Of a DNA stretch of 39,484 nucleotides, positions 3,053-15,545 are shown piece after piece. Below the pieces are notes generated by a model. It saw only the letters and a list, made by a program, of their open reading frames with translations. It was not told the origin of the DNA and made no database searches. The position numbers and the translations under genes were made by a program. Origin of the DNA: Candidatus Hydrogenedentota bacterium (GTDB lineage Bacteria; Hydrogenedentota; Hydrogenedentia; Hydrogenedentales; JAJRTN01); NCBI GenBank assembly GCA_024278275.1, contig JAJRTN010000126.1, forward strand, positions 1-39,484, read 5' to 3'. Position 1 is the first letter of the stretch, and each line of letters opens with the position of its first letter.

Positions 3053-3379
3053 TTACAATACCATCACCTCGGGATCCATGTCGGGTTGGGCCGGGCCGCC
3101 GCCCTGCCGGTCGATGGTCCACGACGCCGCGAAGTCCGCCGCGCAAATGGGGAAGATCTGGATGAAGAGCCGCTGTTTCCGCTGTTCCTCCTTCTCCCGC
3201 TCCCCATGTTCCCGCACGATTCTTTCGAGAGTGCGCCGAAGCGCGTCCCGCTGTTCCGGGCTCAAATCCCCCAGGAAAGCGCTGAACTGCGCGCGGATCA
3301 TGCCCGCGTCCCGGCAGCTTCGTTCCGCCAGGAGCCGAAGCCGGTCGTCGCCGATGTCATAGGCCACAAGGGTCTGCAC
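3053..3379 (-). CDS. cas2: CRISPR adaptation protein Cas2
   Basis: This 108-residue ferredoxin-fold protein dimerises between two Cas1 dimers to form the spacer integrase. The N-terminal strand LVAYDIGDDRLR carries the conserved aspartate after the first beta-strand, and RAQFSAFLGDLS matches the family's R-x-Q-x-S-x-F segment. The start is GTG at 3379, preceded by a GAGGTGA Shine-Dalgarno element. It begins 9 bp after the cas1 stop, so the two are one transcriptional and translational unit. The length is normal for the family, with a slightly extended C-terminus. The 139 bp between its stop and the csm6-like start shows no gene. Confidence 0.92.
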   Translation of the reverse strand: MQTLVAYDIGDDRLRLLAERSCRDAGMIRAQFSAFLGDLSPEQRDALRRTLERIVREHGEREKEEQRKQRLFIQIFPICAADFAASWTIDRQGGGPAQPDMDPEVMVL

Positions 3380-3388
3380 GGGCTCACC

Positions 3389-4399
3389 TCACCACGCCGC
3401 CACGTAAGGCCGGTGGGCCTGCGCGTTGAGCAACACCGCGGCTATTTCCCGTGCCTCCGATTTAATAAGGTCCACGAGCTTCGTCTCCCTCCCTTCGTAT
3501 CGCATCCGCTGATTCAGTCGCTTCAACACCCGCGTCGCCAGTTTTTTTCGACTCGCCCCGTCCAGGTGGCCCTCTTCGTCAAACGCGGGAAGCCATCCCT
3601 TCGAGAAAGACGCCACCATCACGCGATCCACCGCCATCTGGCGGAACTCCTCGATAAAATCGAATACCAGCGTCGGCTTGTTGTCCCGGTAGGCGTGCAG
3701 GAAACCCGCGTAGGGATCCAGCCCCACCACCATCAGTACGCTCCAGATGCGGGAATAGAGAATACCATAACCGTAGTTCAGGCACGCGTTGAAGGGATCC
3801 TTCGCCCCCCGGCGCTTACGCTTTTCAAAGTGCGCCGCGGCGGGCAACACCGCACGGATGCCCGACCAGTAGGCCCGTGCCGCCCGCGCCTCGCGGTTCA
3901 TCAGGGAAGTGCGGAGTTCCGACAGCGATCTCCCCGGCAGGGCCAGCATCTCCTCCAGGAGCCGGTCCACTTCCACGGACGCCGCCCGAAGCTGCTCGAA
4001 GGTTTTCGGAGCGCTTTTCTTGCGTGATTTGCCGAAGTAGCGCAGGTTGGCCGCCTGGTTGCGGAGTTTCCCTTCAAGAAAGGCCTTTGCCAGCGCCACG
4101 CCGCGCCCGTCTTCAACCGCCAGCAATTGCTGGCGGCGCAATGCCGCCCGACCAAAGGATTCCGGCGGAATCACCTTCGCGTAAGGCTCGCCCCGGTAGT
4201 TCAGGAAGGTGATCACCACCCCGTGCCGTGCCGCAAGCGACAGGGCGTCCGACGATACCGTGATGCCCTTGCCCGTCACCAGGATGTTTGTCACCTCCGA
4301 CGCCGGAACCTCCACCGCCGCCTTTCCCTTACGACGAATCACCAATCGCCGGCTGCGCTTGCCCAGCGACGTGCCAAATTCCGTTAACACCAGTTCCAT
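3389..4399 (-). CDS. cas1: CRISPR integrase Cas1
   Basis: This 336-residue integrase inserts new spacers at the leader end of the array. The catalytic elements are visible: Glu in NREARAARAYW, His in LDPYAGFLH and Asp in TLVFDFIEEFR. The N-terminus MELVLTEFGTSLGKRSRRLV is typical of Cas1. I place the start at 4399 because GGGGGAG precedes that ATG by 6 nt and family similarity begins there. The same frame stays open upstream to 4537, which would add 46 residues in which KKGWISYNGFEL occurs twice. That extension is the in-frame translation of a 37-bp direct duplication at the array edge and is unlikely to be real protein. The gene lies 119 bp from the last repeat, on the strand on which the array is transcribed. 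Confidence 0.93.
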   Translation of the reverse strand: MELVLTEFGTSLGKRSRRLVIRRKGKAAVEVPASEVTNILVTGKGITVSSDALSLAARHGVVITFLNYRGEPYAKVIPPESFGRAALRRQQLLAVEDGRGVALAKAFLEGKLRNQAANLRYFGKSRKKSAPKTFEQLRAASVEVDRLLEEMLALPGRSLSELRTSLMNREARAARAYWSGIRAVLPAAAHFEKRKRRGAKDPFNACLNYGYGILYSRIWSVLMVVGLDPYAGFLHAYRDNKPTLVFDFIEEFRQMAVDRVMVASFSKGWLPAFDEEGHLDGASRKKLATRVLKRLNQRMRYEGRETKLVDLIKSEAREIAAVLLNAQAHRPYVAAW

Positions 4400-4426: not shown

Positions 4427-4535
4427 CAGTTCAAAACCATTGTAGCTTATCCAACCCTTCTTCTTGAAGAGCATGGAGAAGGGAACGGGACCCGAGAGCA
4501 GTTCAAAACCATTGTAGCTTATCCAACCCTTCTTC
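4427..4535. repeat. 37-bp perfect direct duplication flanking a 35-bp insert, beside cas1
   Basis: Bases 4427-4463 and 4499-4535 are identical over exactly 37 bp. They start CAGTTCAAAACC and end AACCCTTCTTC, and the bases on both outer sides differ. The intervening 4464-4498 is 35 bp. The CRISPR repeat here is 37 bp and the spacers are mostly 35-41 bp, so this unit has array-like dimensions but is out of register. The right copy consists of 20 bp of cas1-side flank plus the first 17 bp of the terminal degenerate repeat. The 72-bp period preserves the reading frame, which is why cas1 appears to have an N-terminal extension. Confidence 0.9.
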
Positions 4536-6142
4536 ATCAGGTCATGGGGGGCAATGTCTCTAGACGATGCGGCACTCTTTGTGCTGCGTGAGTTTCGATC
4601 CCTTCTTCATCAGGTCATGGGGGGCAATAGCACTTCAGCGCAAAATCCTTATTGTCGCTGACTCCAGTGTTTCGATCCCTTCTTCATCAGATGGCAATAA
4701 TAGAAAAATAACCGGCGATTTACGTGAATGTCGCTGACTCCAGTGTTTCGATCCCTTCTTCATCAGGTCATGGGGGGCAATCGGACTACGTGTGCATTGA
4801 AGCGTATGCGCCCGGGGCGGTTTCGATCCCTTCTTCATCAGGTCATGGGGGGTAATTGCCAGATTAACCCAAATGCCCGCCGTAGGGTATCCTTGTTTCG
4901 ATCCCTTCTTCATCAGGTCATGGGGGGTAATAGGGTACGAAGGGAGGCTGAGCATCGATGGCAACAACGTGGTTTCGATCCCTTCTTCATCAGGTCATGG
5001 GGGGTAATTAACCTAACAAACAAGGAGAAGAAAATGGACAGCAAAACGCTACTCGTTTCGATCCCTTCTTCATCAGGTCATGGGGGGTAATATTTAAAAA
5101 GTTATCCGATTTTTCGGACTGCGATTGGTTTCGATCCCTTCTTCATCAGGTCATGGGGGGTAATGCGTGCATGGGTCAGTATTTCGCGCCGTGTGACCAG
5201 TTTCGATCCCTTCTTCATCAGGTCATGGGGGGTAATAACGCCGGAGTGGGAGCTCCATACGGACGGTGTAGGTGTTTCGATCCCTTCTTCATCAGGTCAT
5301 GGGGGGTAATTGGTACATCAACACCCACCTACCTTACATCGGCCTCGCCAAGTTTCGATCCCTTCTTCATCAGGTCATGGGGGGTAATGACCTGAGAACA
5401 TGAAAGACGTGTGTGTTTGTCAGGGCGTTTCGATCCCTTCTTCATCAGGTCATGGGGGGTAATCTCCATCGCGGACGGTGGCGAACTGGATTTGTGGCGC
5501 TTGTTTCGATCCCTTCTTCATCAGGTCATGGGGGGTAATAAACTAGGAGGATCTGGGAATATGAAAAACGTGTGTGTGTTTCGATCCCTTCTTCATCAGG
5601 TCATGGGGGGTAATGCCGGCACAGAGAGGGGATCACGATGACCAGTACCTGTTTCGATCCCTTCTTCATCAGGTCATGGGGGGTAATAGTTCGAAACGTT
5701 AAACGATTTTTCAGACTGTGAGTGTGTTTCGATCCCTTCTTCATCAGGTCATGGGGGGTAATGAAAAATGGTGCCGCGAATGTGTTGATGATGATGGAGG
5801 TTTCGATCCCTTCTTCATCAGGTCATGGGGGGTAATAATTACGGAACTGGTCTATGCGGAGCGGGTCAACGACCTCGTTTCGATCCCTTCTTCATCAGGT
5901 CATGGGGGGTAATCGTGCGATAATTGTGGGGAAACGGTGCTGATTGCCGTTTCGATCCCTTCTTCATCAGGTCATGGGGGGTAATAGGGTGGTACGCGCC
6001 GACGCAGAGGGGGAGTCATGGTAACCAGTGTTTCGATCCCTTCTTCATCAGGTCATGGGGGGTAATAGACGTCGGAAAGAATGAACGCCGTCACCTGCTG
6101 AAATTGTTTCGATCCCTTCTTCATCAGGTCATGGGGGGTAAT
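4519..6142 (-). CRISPR. Type III-A CRISPR array, 22 repeats and 21 spacers, transcribed leftward
   Basis: The 37-bp repeat reads on the plus strand GTTTCGATCC...GGGGGGTAAT. On the transcribed minus strand it ends GGGATCGAAAC, resembling the ATTGAAAC-type 5' handle of type III crRNAs. Repeat starts are 4519 (degenerate), 4592, 4669 (30 bp, contracted), 4745, 4820, 4895, 4972, 5055, 5128, 5200, 5274, 5352, 5427, 5503, 5578, 5651, 5726, 5800, 5877, 5949, 6030 and 6106. Spacers are 35-46 bp. The four full or degenerate repeats nearest cas1, and the contracted one, end in CAAT. All others end in TAAT. The degeneracy at the cas1 side and the handle orientation place the leader at the right (6143 onward) and the oldest units at the left. 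The array lies between csm5 and cas1, all on the minus strand. Confidence 0.97.
4653..4766. repeat. 38-bp direct duplication straddling a spacer-repeat junction
   Basis: Bases 4653-4690 and 4729-4766 are identical over 38 bp and differ at both outer edges. Each copy is 16 bp of spacer (TGTCGCTGACTCCAGT) plus the first 22 bp of a repeat. The intervening 4691-4728 is 38 bp. This explains why the repeat at 4669 is contracted and why the next spacer (4699-4744) is 46 bp and ends like its neighbour. If one copy plus the insert is removed, a normal repeat, 40-bp spacer, repeat order is restored. Confidence 0.88.
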
Positions 6143-6314
6143 ACGGGCTTTTCAAGGACTTACGCAGGTTTTGCCGCCGTGAGGCCCCAAGTTGTTTCAT
6201 CCTAAGATCCTCCGTGGTATGGGTTTATCGATGTCATTCGCTCCTTTTCGAATCTGGGGGTGGCAGGGGGCCGGTCCAGGCGCTCAAACCGTGTTTTTTA
6301 CCCGGTGTTTTCAT
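6129..6314 (-). other. Three abutting tiny ORFs within the leader (26, 11 and 23 codons)
   Basis: On the minus strand, 6314-6234 encodes 26 residues beginning MKTPGKKHGL, with AAGGA 6 nt upstream of its ATG. Its TGA overlaps the next ATG (ATGA), which opens an 11-residue frame (6237-6202) preceded by AAGGAG. That frame stops in TAG just before an ATG at 6200 with GGAGG 8 nt upstream. The third frame runs 23 codons and stops inside the first CRISPR repeat. Such spacing resembles translational coupling, but the peptides have no recognisable similarity and chance is quite possible. Recorded as an observation, not as genes. Confidence 0.2.
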
Positions 6315-6364
6315 GGCAAGTCCTTATAGAGGCATTTGCGAAATTGAGGTTTTTGATTCGTGCC
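6143..6364 (-). promoter_or_regulatory. CRISPR leader region
   Basis: This AT-richer stretch lies immediately upstream (minus sense) of the first repeat and should hold the array promoter and the integration-guiding sequence. Read on the minus strand it ends CTGCGTAAGTCCTTGAAAAG shortly before the repeat. A TATAAG element lies at about 6325-6331, but no good -35 box is spaced from it, so the promoter is not resolved. The leader call rests on the repeat polarity and on the decayed repeats being at the opposite end. Confidence 0.65.
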
Positions 6365-6405
6365 ATCCTGTATGTTGCGGCTAGGATAGCCGCAACATAC
6401 AGGAT
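6365..6405. repeat. Perfect 19-bp-arm hairpin between csm5 and the leader
   Basis: ATCCTGTATGTTGCGGCTA (6365-6383) is the exact reverse complement of 6387-6405, around the loop GGA. It lies 99 bp beyond the csm5 stop in the direction of transcription and just outside the leader, so it could separate the csm operon from the array. It lacks a T-run on either strand. Its central core GCGGCTAGGATAGCCGC resembles the GCGGCTGGAAGCCGC hairpin at 16084-16102, which points to a dispersed palindromic element. The flanking stretch 6406-6504 shows no gene. Confidence 0.85.
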
Positions 6406-6504
6406 CATGTGTAGGTTTCACTGAAAATCTTCTTTTCACAAATGGCACTTATAACATACCCTGTTGCGTTTTTTCGAAGGTGGTGGCCGGTTGGCGTGTG
6501 TTTT

Positions 6505-7761
6505 TCAATCTTCGAAAAGCAGGTCCACCCTGAGCCATCCCATGGGCTGCCAGCCCTTCGGCCCGCGCGCCCATTTTCGGGTTTTGGGGAAGAGGTCCAC
6601 GCCGGGGGCGCCCATGCGTTTGTTGGGCCGTCCGTCCCTGCCGCGACCGAAGGCATCGCGCATGGCCTTCACGTCTTGGGGTTGCAGCATGGGCCCGATG
6701 GTCTTGGTATGCCAGCCGGTGCCGTAGCCCAGGGGCATGCAGGCGGCGTCTTTCGCGGCGAGTTCCCGAAAGAAGCGGGCGTGGGCCTCCTGCTGCTGGT
6801 CGTGGTAGAAATCGGCTTCGATGCGTGCCAGGGCCCGGCCGTTCCGGCGCAGGGCGGCCGCGAGGGCCTTGGGGTCGCGGAGGAGGGCCACGGTTTTTCC
6901 GCCGAGGGCGCGTGCGAGGTCCGTGTCGTGTTCGAGGCGCCACGTGTCGAGGTAGCAGGGCAGTTCGACGGCGGTCTCTCCGGGCATGAGGCTTTCGAGG
7001 AGGATCTTCATGCCGCGTTTCTCCTCGAAGCCCCGGCGGGTGACGTTCATGACGCGCACGGGGGTGACGGCGAAGTGTTCGGGGCCGAGGGGGGCGGAGT
7101 CGCGGAGTACGAAGGCTTTCATGCCGTCCTCGATGACCTTGCCGAAGAGTCGTTGGTTCAGGTCTATGCCGGCCCATTGTGGTGGCCGACGGCTTCGGAC
7201 GGCCTGTTGGATTTCCCGTCCCAGGTGGAGGTGTTCGGCGAGGGCACAGGCGAGGGCGGTGCGAAGGGCGCCCTTCACGGAGGAGCCGGGGAGGAAGAAT
7301 CGGTCGAAGGGATCCTTGACGAAGGCGGCCACTTCGCCGGTGCGGTCCTCGCGGGGGGCCGGGGCCTGTTGCGGCGGCGTGGGATGCCGGCGTTCCGCCT
7401 GGCGCATGAGCCTGGCCATCCTTGGGTCAATCCTGGGGCCGGTGCGCTGTCCTCGTCCACCGCCGCCTGGCCGTTGCGGTCTCCGCTGGGGGGCCTGCCG
7501 CCGTGGTGTGGCGGGCGCCTCGCCATGGAAGGGGAGGTCGTATCGGAGGAAGTCGTCGTCCAGCTTGAGGCCCGAAGCCACGGCGTCGAGGGCGAATTGG
7601 GGGTTGTCGCGGTTTGCCTCGAAAAAGGCGCGCACGTCTTTGAGCTTGAAACGGCCCTGGTCGACGGCGTAGTCGATGGGCATGTACTTTTCCCCGGAGC
7701 CGATGTGGACGGGGGTGAGTGGCGTGAGCCTGAGCACGCCTTGAACGCGATCATGGGTCAT
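6505..7761 (-). CDS. csm5: Type III-A effector subunit Csm5 (RAMP)
   Basis: This 418-residue RAMP protein caps the head end of the Csm complex and is associated with crRNA 3'-end maturation. The N-terminal strand LTPLTPVHIGSGE is the family signature, and FFLPGSSVKGALRTAL is the conserved RAMP G-S-S-x-K-G segment at about residue 155. Between them (about residues 85-140) is an Arg/Pro/Gly/Gln-rich, probably disordered insertion absent from typical Csm5. The frame is open upstream to 8151, but I start at 7761 because AAGGAGG precedes this ATG by 6 nt. It overlaps the csm4 end by 11 bp. The C-terminus (LGYGTGWHTKTIGPML) retains the conserved glycine-rich stretch. Confidence 0.92.
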   Translation of the reverse strand: MTHDRVQGVLRLTPLTPVHIGSGEKYMPIDYAVDQGRFKLKDVRAFFEANRDNPQFALDAVASGLKLDDDFLRYDLPFHGEAPATPRRQAPQRRPQRPGGGGRGQRTGPRIDPRMARLMRQAERRHPTPPQQAPAPREDRTGEVAAFVKDPFDRFFLPGSSVKGALRTALACALAEHLHLGREIQQAVRSRRPPQWAGIDLNQRLFGKVIEDGMKAFVLRDSAPLGPEHFAVTPVRVMNVTRRGFEEKRGMKILLESLMPGETAVELPCYLDTWRLEHDTDLARALGGKTVALLRDPKALAAALRRNGRALARIEADFYHDQQQEAHARFFRELAAKDAACMPLGYGTGWHTKTIGPMLQPQDVKAMRDAFGRGRDGRPNKRMGAPGVDLFPKTRKWARGPKGWQPMGWLRVDLLFED

Positions 7762-8764
7762 GGGGCGCCTCCTTGGGAAGATGACAGGGCAGGGCAAAGG
7801 CCAGGCCGGAACGCCACACGGGGTGGGCGGTGAAAGCGGCGGGCCGCGCGTCGCGCATGTCGCCGTGGCGTGGGGCCACCGCGGGGAAGGCGCTGCCCTC
7901 CACGCACATGCGAAGGCTGCGCTTGCGCTGGTCGCTGCCGCCGGGGCCGTGTATCCAGCCGCCGCGCAGGGCGCAGTCGTAGGCGGCGGGGGCGTCCAGC
8001 ACGCCCCGGTCCACCTCGTCGCGCGTGGGGAGATAGAGACTGAGGGAAAAGAAGTCCGGGGCGTCCGCCGTACCGAAGAGGGCCGTCCGGTCCGTCCATT
8101 CCTCGATGCCGAGGAGGTCGAAGCGGCCATAGCCCACGGAGCGTTCACCACCGAGGCCCTGCTCGCCCAGTTCCTGCACGAGGCGCTGGAATGACGGGAG
8201 GTGGCCTTTTTCCAGTTCGACGAAGAACCAGGCGCCGCAGCCCTTGCCGGTATTGACGCGCAGCCCCCGCCGGTCGAAGGGGGTGGTGGCGCCGCCCGCC
8301 CGGTCGATGACCACGGCGGTGGAGAACTCCTCCACCACCAGGGCGTCGGGCGGTGCGGGACGGCCTTCCAATTCCGACGCGAGCACGGCGGCCCCGCCCG
8401 GCAGCACCCGGATCTCCGCCTCGGGCACCGCCGCGCCCCGGAGCCAGGTGGCCAGGAGTTTCTCGGAGAGGAGGGAGACGGACTTCCACCGCTTCCGGCC
8501 TTTCACGTCCCCCTCGGGCTGTTGTCCCGGGCGGTGGAAAAAGGGCTTGGGGTAGAGGAAAAGATCACGCCAGAAGGGGAAGAGGGAACTGAGGCGCAGT
8601 TCGGGGGCCCGGTCGAGGAGGGGCGACCCGGTGAGGGCGGCCACGGCGACCAGGGCGCCGTGGAGGGTGTCGGAGTGGACGAGGGCCCCGGATTTTCGCG
8701 CGCGGCCGTGGGGCGCCACGTAAAAGGGGGCCAAGGGTTCCAGGCGTACACGGTAGATGCTCAT
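7751..8764 (-). CDS. csm4: Type III-A effector subunit Csm4 (RAMP)
   Basis: This 337-residue Cas5-like RAMP binds the 5' handle of the crRNA and contacts Cas10 at the base of the complex. The start YRVRLEPLAPFYV followed by SDTLHGALVAVAALTG matches the Csm4 N-terminus, and a glycine-rich RAMP motif (GLGGERSVGYGRFDL) lies at about residues 205-220. Its ATG overlaps the csm3 stop as ATGA, and its end overlaps csm5, showing a tightly coupled operon. Length is normal for the family. No damage is visible. Confidence 0.92.
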   Translation of the reverse strand: MSIYRVRLEPLAPFYVAPHGRARKSGALVHSDTLHGALVAVAALTGSPLLDRAPELRLSSLFPFWRDLFLYPKPFFHRPGQQPEGDVKGRKRWKSVSLLSEKLLATWLRGAAVPEAEIRVLPGGAAVLASELEGRPAPPDALVVEEFSTAVVIDRAGGATTPFDRRGLRVNTGKGCGAWFFVELEKGHLPSFQRLVQELGEQGLGGERSVGYGRFDLLGIEEWTDRTALFGTADAPDFFSLSLYLPTRDEVDRGVLDAPAAYDCALRGGWIHGPGGSDQRKRSLRMCVEGSAFPAVAPRHGDMRDARPAAFTAHPVWRSGLAFALPCHLPKEAPHDP

Positions 8765-9537
8765 GCCGCCGAACCCCCGGCCCGGCCGGCCAACTGCTTC
8801 CTGAGCGCCCCGACCTGTGGCGCGGCGTCGAGGTCGCGCCCGTTGAAGGAGGCGACGGTAACGGTGCAGTTGACGAAGCGGACCTGGCCGTAGCCCCGCG
8901 AGCCCTGCCCGCCGAGGTAGTCGTGCTCCAGCATTTCCATGGCTTCGGCCACGTACTTCAGCCAGTCCAGGTCGCCCTCGCGGTAGAGGTTGAAGACCAT
9001 CTCGAAATCAAAGCGCGCGCCCGCGGGCACCCGCTCCATCTGGCGCGGCGTAGCCGCCGAGGTGATGCGGTCGATGACGACCTCCGTTTTCACCTGGCTC
9101 ATGGGCATGTCGGTGTAGAGACTGCGCTCCAGGGTCTTCGCGGTCTCTTCCGCCATCATGGCGTCGCGCACCAGGAGCCGCGTGGGCAGGCTTTCGCCGC
9201 CCAGGCGGCGGATGTCTTCGGGGGTTACGCCAAAGAGGTGGCAGATGAAGCATTCTTCGTAATCCTGAAGGTCATCGCAGACGTGGATGCGGGAGTTGCC
9301 AACACGTTTGAGCTTTTTCCCGCGATATATGCGTTACAACAGGCAGCGCATTTTGCCTTTGAGGGAAGAACCGGGAACATAGGGGCGACCGTCAAGGCCG
9401 TTGCGGATGATCGTGTTGTCCGCGCCGCCGATGGCCAGGCCGATCTCGTTCCCGCCGATGTGCATTCCCGTGACCGTCTCGATTTCGCCGCTGATCTTAA
9501 TGCGGCCCAAGTGGGTGATGGTGCCTTGTTCACTCAT
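8761..9537 (-). pseudogene. csm3: Csm3 backbone RNase, open frame interrupted by one in-frame TAA
   Basis: Csm3 forms the multi-copy backbone of the Csm filament and cleaves target RNA every 6 nt. The N-terminal part (9537-9337) encodes TGMHIGGNEIGLAIGGADN. Asp40 here aligns with the catalytic Asp32 of Staphylococcus epidermidis Csm3. It continues to PGSSLKGKMRCLL and then meets TAA at 9334-9336 (codon 68). Reading on in the same frame gives RIYRGKKLKRVG and an uninterrupted Csm3 C-terminal part to 8761, including GGQGSRGYGQVRF. So there is one nonsense codon and no frameshift, and the remainder shows no decay. A GAA-to-TAA or CAA-to-TAA substitution would explain it. It may be a real lesion, a sequencing error or readthrough. 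The internal ATG at 9171 could not restore the catalytic N-terminus. The gene follows csm2 by 15 bp with an AAGGAAG Shine-Dalgarno. Confidence 0.88.
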
Positions 9538-9552
9538 GATTTCTTCCTTTTT

Positions 9553-9918
9553 CTATTTGCCGCCCGCGGCGCGGTGGTATGCGAGAATGGCCTCGAATCC
9601 CTGGCAGAAACGGCGGAAGCGCGCCCTTCGCTGCTTATCATCGTCAGACTTGTCCACGGCGTCAATGGCCGACTGGAGTTCATCGCCCAAATCGCGAAGG
9701 TTTCTGCTTCGGGCGACGGCATAGGCGATCCGTGGCTTGAGCAGCAGCAGGGAGGGCATGTCCAGGTCCCCCGCCATCTCCATTTTCTTGATGCTGCCGA
9801 AGATGCCTCTTATTTGGCTGGTGCTGACCTGTCGGCTGATTTCCCGGCCAAAGCCTTCGGCCCATTTAATGAACTCGTTGTCGATGCCGTTCCGGACGGC
9901 AACCGCGAACTGTCCCAT
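9553..9918 (-). CDS. csm2: Type III-A small subunit Csm2
   Basis: This 121-residue all-helical protein corresponds to the Cas11-type small subunit that lines the inner face of the Csm filament alongside the crRNA-target duplex. It has the expected size and position (between cas10 and csm3). The pattern IRGIFGSIKKMEMAG followed by KPRIAYAVARSRN matches the Csm2 core (IR-x-I, then L-x-P-K/R-x-A-Y-A-x-R). The ATG at 9918 lies one base beyond the cas10 stop, so the two are coupled. Charged residues such as KSDDDKQRRARF near the C-terminus suit RNA contact. Confidence 0.9.
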   Translation of the reverse strand: MGQFAVAVRNGIDNEFIKWAEGFGREISRQVSTSQIRGIFGSIKKMEMAGDLDMPSLLLLKPRIAYAVARSRNLRDLGDELQSAIDAVDKSDDDKQRRARFRRFCQGFEAILAYHRAAGGK

Positions 9919-9919
9919 G

Positions 9920-12325
9920 TCAATGATCCTCCTTCAGTAGCAGTTCGGTCCACCGCAAGGGCAGCCCGAGCCGGTCCTCTATGGCCTCGTTGGCGTCCAG
10001 GATACGCGCCTGGATTGCCGCGATATCATTTTCCGCGTCCTTGTGGCGCTTGGCGAAATCGCGCAGGCCGTAGGTGAGCATCCAGCGCCACCGTTGCCAC
10101 CGGGCCTTCTGCTTGAGATCCTCCAGCGACAGGCCGGGCCGGGTCTTCGCCACAAAAAGTTGCTCGCGCCGGTATACCTCCCACACATCGTAGAGCCGCC
10201 GCAGGAAGGCCTTCGGCAGGGGGCCTTCGGGCTTGAGCAGAGCAAGCAGGAGGCGGTGGAAGTCGCGGAAGCGGTCCATCTCCTCGAAGCCCACGGGCAC
10301 GCCGAAGAGGGTGATGGCGTTTTTTTCGCGGCCCTTGCGAACGTATTGCTTGGCGGCCTCCTCGTATTGATGGGCCAGGTCGGCCGCGTGGCGCAGGGGC
10401 AGATGGTCGTCCACCATCGCCACGCCCCCCGAAAAGGTGAAGTTCGGGTTGAGGCCGCTGAAGTCGTCGAAACGTTCCCGCAGGTCGAGGGCGAAGTCGA
10501 TGACCCGGTTCCACGCGCCCACCACGAAGAGGTCGTCGCCGCCGGCATAAAGCACGCCCACTTCGCCGTGGTACTCCGTTTCGACCACGTGGTCCAGGTA
10601 GCCCTCGAAGAAATCCTTCAACAGGGCGCTGAGGGTGGCCACGCGGCTGAGGGAGGCGCGCTCGCCGAGGCCCGTGGCGAAGAGGGCGCCCAGGTTGTCC
10701 ACGTCGGCCCGGAACACGCCCAGCTTATTCGCGCCGGTGGATTCCTTCGCCAGTTCCTCGAAGGTTTTGATCCCGCCCTCGTTGCCCAGGGCCCAACTCC
10801 GCGCCGCGAAACGGTGTCCGTAGGAAGGGGCGGTGGCGGTACGCGGAAGCTCGTGTAGTGCTTCGGGGTCGAAATCGCCCAGTTGCATGAGCGCCGTGGG
10901 CGAAAAGTCCAGGTTCCTGAGTTCCCTTTCGAGGCTCACCTCGAAACCGAGTTCCGCGAAGAAACGGTTGAGGCCGGTCGGGCGGTCTGTAGGGGCGCGC
11001 CATGCGAGCCACTTCGCGGTGGCGATGCGTTGGCCGAGGTCCACGTAGTGGTTGCACGGGTCGCAGAGTTCCCCGTCGGCGCCGTTGCCCCCCTCGACCT
11101 CCCGGCCGCACACGGGGCACTTGGCCGCCTGGCCGCCCGTGTCCTGGAAGCCGAAGACGGCGTTGTAGTCCTCGCGGGCGATGTGGGTGAGTTTGCGTTG
11201 CTTCGCCCTGGCGGCCGCTTTGGCCGCTTCGGCCCATTGGGTGGAAAAGCGCTCCGGCCTGAAATCCGCCGCGCCCACTTCGATGCCGCCCACCTGCACG
11301 GTCAGGTCCGCGCCCACGTGGCGGTGGAGCAGACGGGAGAGGCGGTGGGCGGTCTGGTCCACGTTGGCCCCGAGGGGAAGCAGGGCGTAGAAGCGGCCGC
11401 CGCCGTTATAGATGATGCATGTCTCGGGTACGCCCGCCTCGCGGCAGACCTCGGCGGCGCAGGCATCGGCGATAAGCTGCAGGGCGAAGGAGCGGCCCTT
11501 GAGGGTTTTGGCCGCTTTGCTGGACACGATGGTGTAGAGGAAGTTCTGGATGCCCGAAAGGTCGCCGCAGACGAGGGTACAGATGGGTTCCTGGAGCACC
11601 GGCAAATCGGGGTTGCGCATCGTAATCGCGGTCCGCAGCTCCGAGGCCCTCGCTTCGCTCATGTCGTCGGCGAGAAAGCAGGCCGCCAGCGCGGCCACGG
11701 TCCGGCAGTGATCGAAGAGGCTGATGTCGGGGACGTAGGCACCGACCCGCGTGGGGGTCGCGGCAGGCACGCGGGAGGTGTAGCGGCGCATGAGCGCCAG
11801 CCAGGTGCGATGGGGAAGGGGACGGCCCGGAAAGGCCGCCACGGCCGCCACGAAGTCTTTCCACAGGGCCGCGTAGTCCGCCTCGCCGCACCGGGCACCC
11901 AGCTCCGGGAAAAAATGATCAAAATCGCCGTGCATGGCCAAGGGGAAGTAGGTGTCTCGTTGTGCGCCTTCAGCCTTGTCGGGGGCTATTCGACCGAGGA
12001 GATTGAGCAGGCGCGCGGCCTGGGGCTTGTCGGTGGCCTGCGCGGCATCCTCCATGCGTTCGCCGGAAGAAAGCCAATCCGCCAGGGAGAGGAGATAGGC
12101 CTCGCGGCTGTCGGGGTGGTGGTGCATGCGCGCCCAACTCGTCGCCTCAGCGTCCTCAAGGTGGCGCTCCAGAAACTGCCCCGTCCACAGCGTATGGGCA
12201 TAGGTGTTGGCGAAGTGTTCCGCCTCATCGTGCCCTAAGGGCCGTGGCTCCCCCGTGCGCTGCCAGAACTTCCCGATATCGTGGAGCAACCCCGCCGTTG
12301 CGATGCGAGCGACTCGAGACTCCAT
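9920..12325 (-). CDS. csm1: Csm1/Cas10, large subunit with HD nuclease and cyclic-oligoadenylate synthase motifs
   Basis: This 801-residue protein is the signature subunit of type III systems. The N-terminal HD domain is visible at residues 13-20 (LLHDIGKF) and would provide ssDNase activity. A zinc-finger region follows at about residues 400-425 (CPVCG...CDPC). The second Palm domain carries the intact GGDD at residues 595-598 (YAGGDDLFVVG), which makes cyclic oligoadenylate from ATP when target RNA is bound and so should activate the CARF-HEPN protein encoded at 1546-2913. The first-palm region has GDLSGIQNFLY. The start ATG has GGAGG 7 nt upstream. It is the first gene of the csm operon. 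Length is normal and no lesion is seen. Confidence 0.96.
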   Translation of the reverse strand: MESRVARIATAGLLHDIGKFWQRTGEPRPLGHDEAEHFANTYAHTLWTGQFLERHLEDAEATSWARMHHHPDSREAYLLSLADWLSSGERMEDAAQATDKPQAARLLNLLGRIAPDKAEGAQRDTYFPLAMHGDFDHFFPELGARCGEADYAALWKDFVAAVAAFPGRPLPHRTWLALMRRYTSRVPAATPTRVGAYVPDISLFDHCRTVAALAACFLADDMSEARASELRTAITMRNPDLPVLQEPICTLVCGDLSGIQNFLYTIVSSKAAKTLKGRSFALQLIADACAAEVCREAGVPETCIIYNGGGRFYALLPLGANVDQTAHRLSRLLHRHVGADLTVQVGGIEVGAADFRPERFSTQWAEAAKAAARAKQRKLTHIAREDYNAVFGFQDTGGQAAKCPVCGREVEGGNGADGELCDPCNHYVDLGQRIATAKWLAWRAPTDRPTGLNRFFAELGFEVSLERELRNLDFSPTALMQLGDFDPEALHELPRTATAPSYGHRFAARSWALGNEGGIKTFEELAKESTGANKLGVFRADVDNLGALFATGLGERASLSRVATLSALLKDFFEGYLDHVVETEYHGEVGVLYAGGDDLFVVGAWNRVIDFALDLRERFDDFSGLNPNFTFSGGVAMVDDHLPLRHAADLAHQYEEAAKQYVRKGREKNAITLFGVPVGFEEMDRFRDFHRLLLALLKPEGPLPKAFLRRLYDVWEVYRREQLFVAKTRPGLSLEDLKQKARWQRWRWMLTYGLRDFAKRHKDAENDIAAIQARILDANEAIEDRLGLPLRWTELLLKEDH

Positions 12326-13017
12326 GCCTTGTCCTCCGTCCGCCGGGAGCGGCAGACGGAAACGCTGTCAATACCGTACCCCCGGCTTCACCCATTTTCC
12401 TCACGACCTACCACCGGATATGCATACTTTATACAGCTATCATAGAAAAAAAGGGGCGCCATGTCCAACGCTTCGGGTAGCATGTTCCAAAGAGCGAGGG
12501 GCGATTTCAGAAAACGCGAAAAAAATCTGAAAAAATCTCGGGACCGGGACTACCCCTTGCAGGGGAATGGCATTCCCCCCCTCCCCCCCCCTTCGGGGTG
12601 CTGGCGGCGTTGCCCCGTCCGCAAGGGGCTTTGTTGCCGAGGGGGTTGGTGGTCGCTGAAGGGGAAGCTCTCCCTCGGTCCTTGGGCCGCGCCGCTCCGG
12701 AACACGGGGCGCGAAGGTCATGGGGGTCCGGGGTGCCCTGCGATGCCACGGACAGCCCGCTGGGGGGGGCCAAGCCCACATCCGTCCCGTAGAGGCCATG
12801 ACGCTTCGTCCCGCAGGGACGATTGAGCCTGTTCCCGAGCCTGGCTCCTCACCCATGAAAGGCTTTCACTTGTCCATCGCGCGGGGAGCGTGCCACAGAA
12901 CCATTGGCCCGAATCCAGGTTCCTGACATGGGGCGGACGGCTCTGGTAAACTCCAGGCCGCGTGTGATGACGAGGGCTCCAGGCATGTCAACCGGTTCAC
13001 CGGGGGAGCGATGCGTG
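12326..13017. other. Divergent intergenic region with G/C tracts and small palindromes
   Basis: This is the divergent gap between csm1 and the GH172 gene and should hold the promoters of both. The AT-rich part (12418-12452) includes TATAAAG in minus sense upstream of csm1. A perfect TTGACA in minus sense at 12366-12371 is not followed by a -10 box. The stretch 12553-12600 is rich in C-runs with palindromes, including GGGGAATG/CATTCCCC at 12562-12578. TCGTCCC-GCA-GGGACGA lies at 12806-12822. The frames that stay open here are low-complexity Pro/Arg/Gly translations and are not credible genes. Confidence 0.5.
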
Positions 13018-14511
13018 ATGATTGCGGAATGGAAAATGCTGAAACGCTGCCTGGCGTGGGCGGTACTGGTGATGATGGTCCGTGGAACGGCGTCGGCGGG
13101 TCCGCCGCCCCTCTACCAGAAGGACCAGGGGCGCACATTCCAGGTGTCGAGCCACAGTCCGAAGGGCTACGATGCCTGGCCGGTGGGACCGGGGGAAACG
13201 GTGGTGCTGGCCGATGTGGAAGGGCCCGCGATTCTTCAGAACATGTGGTTCACTTGCACGGGACTGCCGCAACCGGGGAATAGGTACTTGCGCCACCTTG
13301 TCTTGCGCATGTACTGGGACGATGAGGACACGCCGAGCGTGGAAGTGCCCTTCGGCGATTTCTTCGGCAATGGTTTCTCCCGGCGCACGCCGTGGATATC
13401 GCCTTATCTCGGTGTGACGAGCGGGGGTTTCTATGCCTATTTTCCCATGCCCTTCCGGAAACACGCCCGTATCGAAGTGGAGAGTACGCTGGACCAATCG
13501 GTGAACATCTTTTTTCACTTCCTGGGGCAACACTACAGGCGGTTGCCCAAGGATGCGCTCTACTTTCACGCGCAATGGCGGCGGGAGCATCCGACCGTTC
13601 GCGGGGAGCGGTACCGCATTCTCGATGCGAAGGGCGATGGCTATTTCGCGGGGGTGGCGCTGTTCATGCAGGCCTGCCGGAAGGGCCACCGGTTGAATTT
13701 TCTCGAAGGGGATGAACATATTTTCATTGACGGCGAGGAGACGGCTTCCATTCGGGGCACGGGCGGGGAGGACTACTTTCAGGGAGGGTTTTATTTTATC
13801 GACGGGCCGTTCAACGCTCCGTACCATGGGCTGATATTGAAGGATCCGGAGAAGCTCCAGGTGGCGTGCTACCGCTTCCACATCCTGGACCGGGTGAATT
13901 TCAGCGAAAGCATCCGCGTGGAAATCGAACATGGGAACCGGCCCCAGAACGCGGCGAAGGCGGATTTCTCCAGCGTGGCTTATTGGTACCAGGACGAGCC
14001 GCACCAGCCTTTTCCCCCGCTCAATCCCGACCGCGATCCCGCCACGCTGGGGCCGGCCTTTCTGCTGCCGGGCGCGGTGGAGTGGTAAGGCGCGCCCAAG
14101 ACGCACCTGGTCTATATGTCCACTTATTCGAGCGGGTGGAGCAACAGTCTGGGGGCGGCCTTCGACGGCGATACCCGCGTGGCCACGGGCAAGCCTTTTG
14201 ACGTGCCGACGGACAGTACCTATGTCATCGGCGTGCAGTACATCGCCAGCGACCACGGTGCCATCGCGCAGGTGCGCATCGACGGGCACGACGTGGGCGC
14301 CCCCGTGGACACCTACCGCGCGGAGCCGCTGGACAACTACCTGCTGAACGCCAACACGCCGTTGGGTCATCAGATACTGGGTGAGATCGCGCTCACCGCC
14401 GGGAAACACGACGTGGAGGTCGCCGTGGTGGGCAAAAATCCCGCGGCCAGGGGCAAGGTGGTGATGGTGGACTGCGTGACGGTGAACCCCAAACCCGCGG
14501 CGGTGGAGTAA
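13018..14511 (+). pseudogene. Secreted DUF2961/GH172-family protein with in-frame TAA before its C-terminal domain
   Basis: The start at 13018 has a GGGGGAG Shine-Dalgarno and opens a signal peptide (LKRCLAWAVLVMMVRGTASA). The catalytic-type DUF2961 domain follows, with GTGGEDYFQGGFYF at about residues 247-260. Glu251 is the position conserved in GH172 fructosidases and arabinofuranosidases. TAA at 14086-14088 ends a 356-residue product. The same frame resumes at once (GAPKTHLVYMSTYSSG) and runs 140 further residues to TAA at 14509-14511, forming a beta-rich domain with VIGVQYIASDHGAIAQVRID. Without the stop the product would be a two-domain secreted glycoside hydrolase. The stop falls at the domain boundary, so the short form might still be active. 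The actual substrate cannot be told. Confidence 0.8.
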
Positions 14512-14514
14512 GCC

Positions 14515-14769
14515 ATGGCGAAACTGAAGCTGGACCTGCACGACATCTACAACCGGGGCCACAGCATCGAATCGGAACTGAACCGGGTCATACGGGAGGC
14601 CGTGGACAAACGCATCGCCACGGTGGAGATCATCCCCGGCAAGGGCAGCGGCCAGTTGAAGAAGACCGTACTGCGTTTCCTTCAGCGTCCGGACATCAAG
14701 GCGCTTTACCACCGGGTCGAGAAAGACAGCAAGAACTTCGGACGGCTGTTCGTCCATTTCCGGCATTAA
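14515..14769 (+). CDS. Stand-alone Smr-domain protein
   Basis: This 84-residue protein is almost entirely one Smr (MutS2 C-terminal-type) domain. LKLDLHDIYNRG corresponds to the conserved D-L-H segment, and IIPGKGSGQLKKTVLRFL to the H-G-x-G-x-G-x-L-K motif, with Pro in place of the usual His. Smr domains bind or nick nucleic acids, and small free-standing versions have no fixed role. It begins 3 bp after the end of the GH172 frame and converges on birA with a 4-bp overlap. The motif assignment is good, the function unknown. Confidence 0.8.
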   Translation: MAKLKLDLHDIYNRGHSIESELNRVIREAVDKRIATVEIIPGKGSGQLKKTVLRFLQRPDIKALYHRVEKDSKNFGRLFVHFRH

Positions 14770-15545
14770 CCCTGTAACACGACATCGCCCATAGTGATCA
14801 CCGCGACACGGCCATCGGCTTCGCGCAAGAGCAACTCCCCCCCATTGCCAAAGCCCTCGATAACGCCGTGCCGCTGCCGGGCACCCTCGCCCACGGTCGC
14901 CTCCCGACCCCGGCCGATAACCCGGGCTTCCCACGCATCGCACAGCCCGGCGTACCCCGCCACCCGCCAGCGGTCAATCCAGGGGGAAATCGCGGGAAGC
15001 AGTGCTTCGAGCGCGACCTTTGGTTCGGGGGCATGGCCGCGCTCCATTCGGACCGACGTAGCGGGTCGGTCGATGCGCGCCGCCTCCTTCGGCGTCATGC
15101 CCAGGTTCAGCCCCACGCCAACCACTACGGCAGGCGGCGGCCCCGCCCCGGGCAGGAACTCGGACAGGATACCGCAGATCTTCCGGCCCGCCACCACGAC
15201 GTCGTTCGGCCATTTCACCTCCGCCGGAATTCCCAGGTGGCGGAGGTAATCGGACACGCCGAGGGATACCGCCATGGGAAGAAGGGGCATCCAGCGAAAC
15301 TCCACCTCGGCACGCAAGAGGAATGAAAAGGTCAGATCGCGGTGCGCCGACGCCATCCAAGTCCGTGAATAACGGCCGCGTCCGGCCGTTTGCCGAAGGG
15401 TCGCGACGACCTGCCCGGAACACAGGCCGGGATCATCCGACACACGGTCCTTGAGGAAGGTGTTGGTGGACGGCAGCGAGTCATGCCAGTCAACGGCGCT
15501 GAAGTGCATGTAGGATTTCCCTGCGACGTACGTTGAAAACGTCAT
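14766..15545 (-). CDS. birA: Biotin--[acetyl-CoA-carboxylase] ligase, without DNA-binding domain
   Basis: This 259-residue protein activates biotin to biotinyl-AMP and attaches it to the carrier lysine of acetyl-CoA carboxylase and similar enzymes in the cytoplasm. The biotin/ATP-binding loop TAGRGRYSRTW and the adenylate-site motif AEVKWPNDVVVAGRKICGIL are both intact. VVGVGLNLG follows as expected, and a small C-terminal SH3-like domain ends the protein. There is no N-terminal winged helix, so this is a group I ligase and not a repressor. The start at 15545 is supported by GGAGGAG 8 nt upstream. An alternative ATG lies 12 codons further in. It overlaps the Smr gene end to end by 4 bp. Confidence 0.93.
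   Translation of the reverse strand: MTFSTYVAGKSYMHFSAVDWHDSLPSTNTFLKDRVSDDPGLCSGQVVATLRQTAGRGRYSRTWMASAHRDLTFSFLLRAEVEFRWMPLLPMAVSLGVSDYLRHLGIPAEVKWPNDVVVAGRKICGILSEFLPGAGPPPAVVVGVGLNLGMTPKEAARIDRPATSVRMERGHAPEPKVALEALLPAISPWIDRWRVAGYAGLCDAWEARVIGRGREATVGEGARQRHGVIEGFGNGGELLLREADGRVAVITMGDVVLQG

Follow-up and report, generated by a model that had tools for sequence, protein, structure and literature searches.

Full-site integration of a new spacer duplicates the target that lies between two staggered attacks. In a 2018 study by Nivala et al., of a type I-E system, non-canonical integration reportedly created new CRISPR loci in E. coli. The E. coli case resembles the one proposed here in that Cas1-Cas2 integration reportedly took place outside the leader-repeat junction; its sites lay outside the array, whereas those of the window (i.e., the whole stretch of DNA that was analyzed, 39,484 nucleotides) lie within a native type III-A array and at its border.

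According to the consulted sections of two further reports, spacers can also enter inside arrays, a process documented as ectopic acquisition (PMC7999890, PMC8047081), and in type II-A systems (CRISPR1 and CRISPR3 of S. thermophilus; S. mutans) the new spacer likewise appears away from the leader end. In those sections the type II-A additions are spacers located at internal repeats, whereas the duplicated target of the window is shifted by half a repeat, and no off-register case was found there among the ectopic acquisitions reported. The sections also include the proposal that replication misalignment is a general mechanism of array rearrangement (PMC8047081). The second attack is placed by rulers internal to the repeat, and a mis-measured attack at this second site leads to partial spacer duplication in vivo (PMC6895254). 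In that study by Kim et al. (2019), partial spacer duplication arose, as is proposed here, via full-site integration at the wrong distance, but the error was forced by engineered indels of 1-3 nt and only the second site moved, whereas in the window both sites appear to have moved by 15-20 bp with their spacing kept.

The type III-A locus and the direction of its array

The CRISPR-Cas locus of the window is of type III-A (Csm), with Cas10/Csm1, Csm3-5, Cas6 and Cas1-Cas2 all present. Its components are encoded on the minus strand in the order cas6 (535-1542), a csx1/csm6-like CARF-HEPN gene (1546-2913), cas2 (3053-3379; PF09827, 1.5e-10), cas1 (3389-4399; PF01867, 4.8e-73), the array, and then csm5, csm4, csm3 and cas10/csm1, which make up the type III-A effector (6505-12325). 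The integrase genes cas1 and cas2 are intact and adjacent, and the E, H and D/E catalytic motif positions of Cas1 are conserved in an alignment. A 648-amino-acid open reading frame in the csm region (12997-14943), located upstream of cas10 by the direction of transcription, returned no match in Pfam or PADLOC. The same genome contains two more arrays with different repeats (L053 on contig C142 and L054 on contig C156) and further Cas1 homologues, one of them in a 697-amino-acid open frame; these integrases could in principle act on the type III-A array of the window.

The array itself (4592-6142, minus strand) comprises 22 repeats, with a 37-bp repeat unit, and 20 spacers of 35-46 bp, while a degenerate terminal, i.e., leader-distal, repeat is located at 4519-4555 (minus strand). 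On the minus strand the repeat ends in ATCGAAAC, a typical form for a crRNA handle, and transcription thus runs from right to left, with the leader at 6143 and beyond. The presumed leader or promoter region (6143-6504, minus strand) is further indicated by the leftmost repeat, the handle end of which has decayed, a common condition of terminal repeats, and by the nearest relative found (L055; Cas1 49% identical, repeat closely similar), where the order is cas1-cas2-leader-array and the last repeat likewise decays at its 3' end. The RNA structure of the repeat was uninformative, a stable hairpin being absent. With the leader on the right, both of the units described below belong to the oldest part of the array and are remote from the site at which integration normally occurs. 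The presumed leader also contains, between csm5 and the array, a long near-perfect inverted repeat (6369-6408; ATCCTGTATGTTGCGGCTA...TAGCCGCAACATACAGGAT), which is possibly the terminator of the csm operon.

Two duplications out of register with the repeats

Toward the leader-distal end, at a distance of two units from the terminal repeat, the segments 4653-4690 and 4729-4766 match at every one of their 38 nt and enclose an insert of 38 bp (4691-4728), which returned a single occurrence in a search of the genome. Each copy consists of 16 bp of spacer (TGTCGCTGACTCCAGT) and 22 bp from the start of the repeat in + strand reading (GTTTCGATCCCTTCTTCATCAG), the former being the last 16 bp (+ strand) of the 40-bp spacer at 4629-4668 (minus strand), while the right copy runs on into the full repeat at 4745-4781. 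The edges of the copies are sharp, with T at 4652 against A at 4728 on the left and A at 4691 against G at 4767 on the right, and these differing bases indicate that the junctions hold no microhomology. Removal of 4653-4728 (76 bp) leaves the repeat at 4592-4628, the 40-bp spacer and the repeat at 4745-4781 in succession. The sequence-only reading had described precisely this arrangement, i.e., 38-bp copies that straddle a spacer-repeat junction around a 38-bp insert, a normal order restored by removing one copy together with the insert, and a single event accounting both for a short repeat and for a 46-bp spacer that shares 16 bp with its neighbor, and it was borne out on each of these points. 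A length of 46 bp is in itself normal for a spacer of this array, as exemplified by 5009-5054. While the sharing of 22 repeat bases is expected, a 16-bp spacer end common to two of the 20 spacers is not, with a chance estimated at approximately 1e-7 (~190 pairs x 2 ends x 4^-16).

Approximately 150 bp away, a duplication of the same form (X-S-X, two copies X around an insert S) occurs at the terminal repeat (4427-4535), in agreement with the same geometry claimed for it earlier. In this case 4427-4463 is identical to 4499-4535 (37 nt), with an insert of 35 nt between them (4464-4498), and the right copy is composed of 20 bp of trailer flank and 17 bp of the degenerate terminal repeat; removal of the event leaves an ordinary array end approximately 40 bp from the start of cas1. 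The possibility that this insert is a decayed repeat was rejected, its resemblance to the repeat not being significant (P 0.16-0.27).

Proposed off-register integration and its alternatives

The best explanation for the 4653-4766 unit is off-register ectopic integration of a spacer by Cas1-Cas2, i.e., probably a rare integrase error, to which we assign a probability of roughly 0.6. The old end of the array would have received a 38-bp prespacer, inserted there by Cas1-Cas2 in the wrong register. Followed along the minus strand, in the direction of the array, the attack on the leader side would have fallen 15 bp within a repeat, between ATTGCCCCCCATGAC and CTGATGAAG, and the second attack 38 bp further, 16 bp into the next spacer, with gap filling then duplicating those 38 bp on either side of the new piece. 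The distance from attack to attack would thus have been kept near the 37-bp length of the repeat, while the entire target slid by approximately half a repeat. The event at 4427-4535 would represent a second such error, with a shift of 20 bp, a duplication of 37 bp and an insert of 35 bp, such that the targets would be displaced downstream in array direction by 20 bp in that event and by 15 bp in the 4653-4766 unit. We infer the integrase as the maker of the unit, the order of its attacks and a foreign origin for the insert.

In favor of integration, a single step yields the exact duplication of 38 bp, the shortening of the repeat and the long spacer with its 16 shared bp. The rarity of such units in the census below, the junctions devoid of microhomology, the conserved catalytic positions of Cas1 and the published cases of mis-measured attack and of acquisition inside arrays also count for it. 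The lengths of the duplications (38 and 37 bp, against a 37-bp repeat) and of the inserts (38 and 35 bp, within the 35-46 bp range of the spacers) are those expected of Cas1-Cas2 products, and two duplications both within 1 bp of 37 have an estimated probability of ~0.005 if length is left free between 20 and 60 bp. Three other processes agree less well: canonical leader-end acquisition does not fit a duplicated segment of 16 bp of spacer plus 22 bp of repeat at the leader-distal end, in-register ectopic acquisition does not fit a right edge inside a repeat, and whole-unit recombination or replication misalignment does not fit a left edge in unique spacer sequence devoid of homology. Against integration stand the leader-distal site, far from the usual point of spacer entry, the repeat-like start of the insert, the lack of a protospacer and the lack of X-S-X units outside arrays in 377 kb. 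The sequence-only reading had suggested tracing the protospacer of 4691-4728 and aligning arrays of related strains; exact and degenerate patterns for both inserts returned no match or chance matches only in IMG/VR (the best covering 26 of 38 positions), a blastn comparison of the complete array with phage and plasmid sequences returned no match, and a search for relatives carrying the same array found none, the nearest Cas1 being the 49% identical one. Inspection of the cut sites by eye for a leader-like motif revealed nothing convincing.

The unit can equally be viewed as containing a contracted 30-bp repeat, namely 22 bp plus ATGGCAAT, with which the insert starts, and the earlier caution that this start may be the end of a damaged repeat retains its force. 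A full repeat at 4669-4698 would then have lost GTC and GGGG, with the spacer after it beginning with AATAGAAAAATAACC. As a separate step, one-sided repair or a template switch involving neighboring repeats would have placed a copy of the final 16 bp of the left spacer before the next repeat. Indeed, ATGGCAAT equals the repeat end minus GTC and GGGG and carries a local CAAT variant found in neighboring repeats, and the probability of such a match is ~0.0015 when derivatives with one or two deletions are enumerated exactly, or 0.03-0.06 when its alignment score is compared with those of random or shuffled sequence, with none of 38 real spacer ends scoring as high. Furthermore, the 76-bp period of the unit is normal, and repeat damage accumulates at old array ends. 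However, such damage would require that one repeat suffered two or more small deletions, in addition to a separate non-homologous jump that copied 16 bp of unique spacer, and it would leave unexplained both the 37-38 bp length of the two duplications and the event at 4427-4535, the insert of which is not significantly repeat-like; nor was a comparable event present in any of 97 other arrays. We therefore consider damage combined with a copying error to be rather unlikely, if still a serious contender: the coincidence in length (~0.005) and that of ATGGCAAT are estimated to roughly cancel, and it is parsimony together with the pairing of the events that leads to the probability given above for integration.

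An artefact of assembly or a chimaera of strains is decidedly improbable, even though the draft genome is fragmented (200 contigs) and probably metagenome-assembled, short-read assembly of CRISPR arrays is hard, and k-mer sizes in common use are close to an overlap of 37-38 bp: the insert occurs nowhere else in the genome, its joins to the copies would have to derive from real reads, and both copies hold 16-20 bp of unique sequence besides the repeat. The least credible account is that two independent in-register spacers, derived from overlapping or chimaeric protospacers, share 16 bp at one end by chance beside a decayed repeat. The array does contain related spacer pairs, e.g., 5389-5426 and 5540-5577, but these diverge gradually, whereas here 16 identical bp are followed by unrelated sequence, and repeat damage would be needed as well. 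Of the off-register account, which the sequence-only reading had put forward without noting the position of the leader, the geometry, the origin in one event and the match with the 4427-4535 event thus stand, and the census sets the pair apart; the mechanism itself is favored, short of proof.

Should off-register integration be correct, the original spacer would still be located behind the 3' half of the repeat with its crRNA handle, and the new piece would form only the tail of a chimaeric guide and would probably be useless for immunity. The unit would constitute a natural record of type III Cas1-Cas2 attack sites held at a fixed spacing despite a lost sequence register, thereby separating the ruler from sequence recognition, two functions so far distinguished with engineered repeats in other types; spacer order would not always be a time record, and odd units at array ends need not mean decay. 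A more far-reaching proposal, which we regard as doubtful, is that the integrase has, at the leader-distal end of its own array, a second target shifted by half a repeat, on which it acts with its 37-38 bp ruler intact and its register 15-20 bp downstream, and that array ends can grow off-register in natural populations.

Census of other arrays and spacer content

The regions around Cas1 homologues of many genomes provided 98 distinct arrays with 2,896 repeats, which were searched for exact duplications, spaced one unit apart, that cross from spacer into repeat or the reverse and terminate within the repeat, with no preferred length. Two off-register duplications were returned, both in the array of the window, and none in the 97 other arrays, a contrast that yields no clean probability since the window was picked for carrying both events. 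Two events in one 22-repeat array against none in 97 suggest that something peculiar to this array, or to its integrase, is responsible. A match in L083 from a first census was rejected, being one mismatch in a normal repeat. A scan at longer distance returned two more candidates, i.e., a 101-bp copy in L191 and a weak candidate of 37 bp in L211, with 6 bp outside the repeat. Outside arrays, 377 kb sampled from the same genome contained no further X-S-X units, and only tandem low-complexity or coding repeats were present.

Interior truncated repeats are few elsewhere (L061, L191 and L193). In L061 (11558 and 11987) and L191 (3926), which are unrelated Cas1 systems, the possible short-duplication units resemble those of the window in that an interior truncated repeat lies beside a spacer-length piece. 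Their repeats are missing precisely 10 bp at the end (in array direction), while the edge toward the leader is in place, and these units are unshifted, whereas those of the window are shifted; the loss possibly fits integration with a second attack one helical turn short. The two units of L061 have a common upstream spacer and are possibly one event that was then copied.

With regard to the spacers of the window, three pairs (5389-5426/5540-5577, 5092-5127/5688-5725 and 5615-5650/5986-6029) resemble diverged versions of one source at slightly different offsets. In addition, five of the 20 spacers (4932-4971, 5009-5054, 5540-5577, 5615-5650 and 5986-6029) combine, on the + strand, a Shine-Dalgarno-like motif with an ATG downstream of it, as opposed to none on the minus strand and a mean of 0.84 in shuffled sequence (P 0.0004). 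Since the crRNAs are produced from the minus strand, they would base-pair with mRNA at its translation starts, as if these spacers had been acquired from gene starts, always in one orientation.
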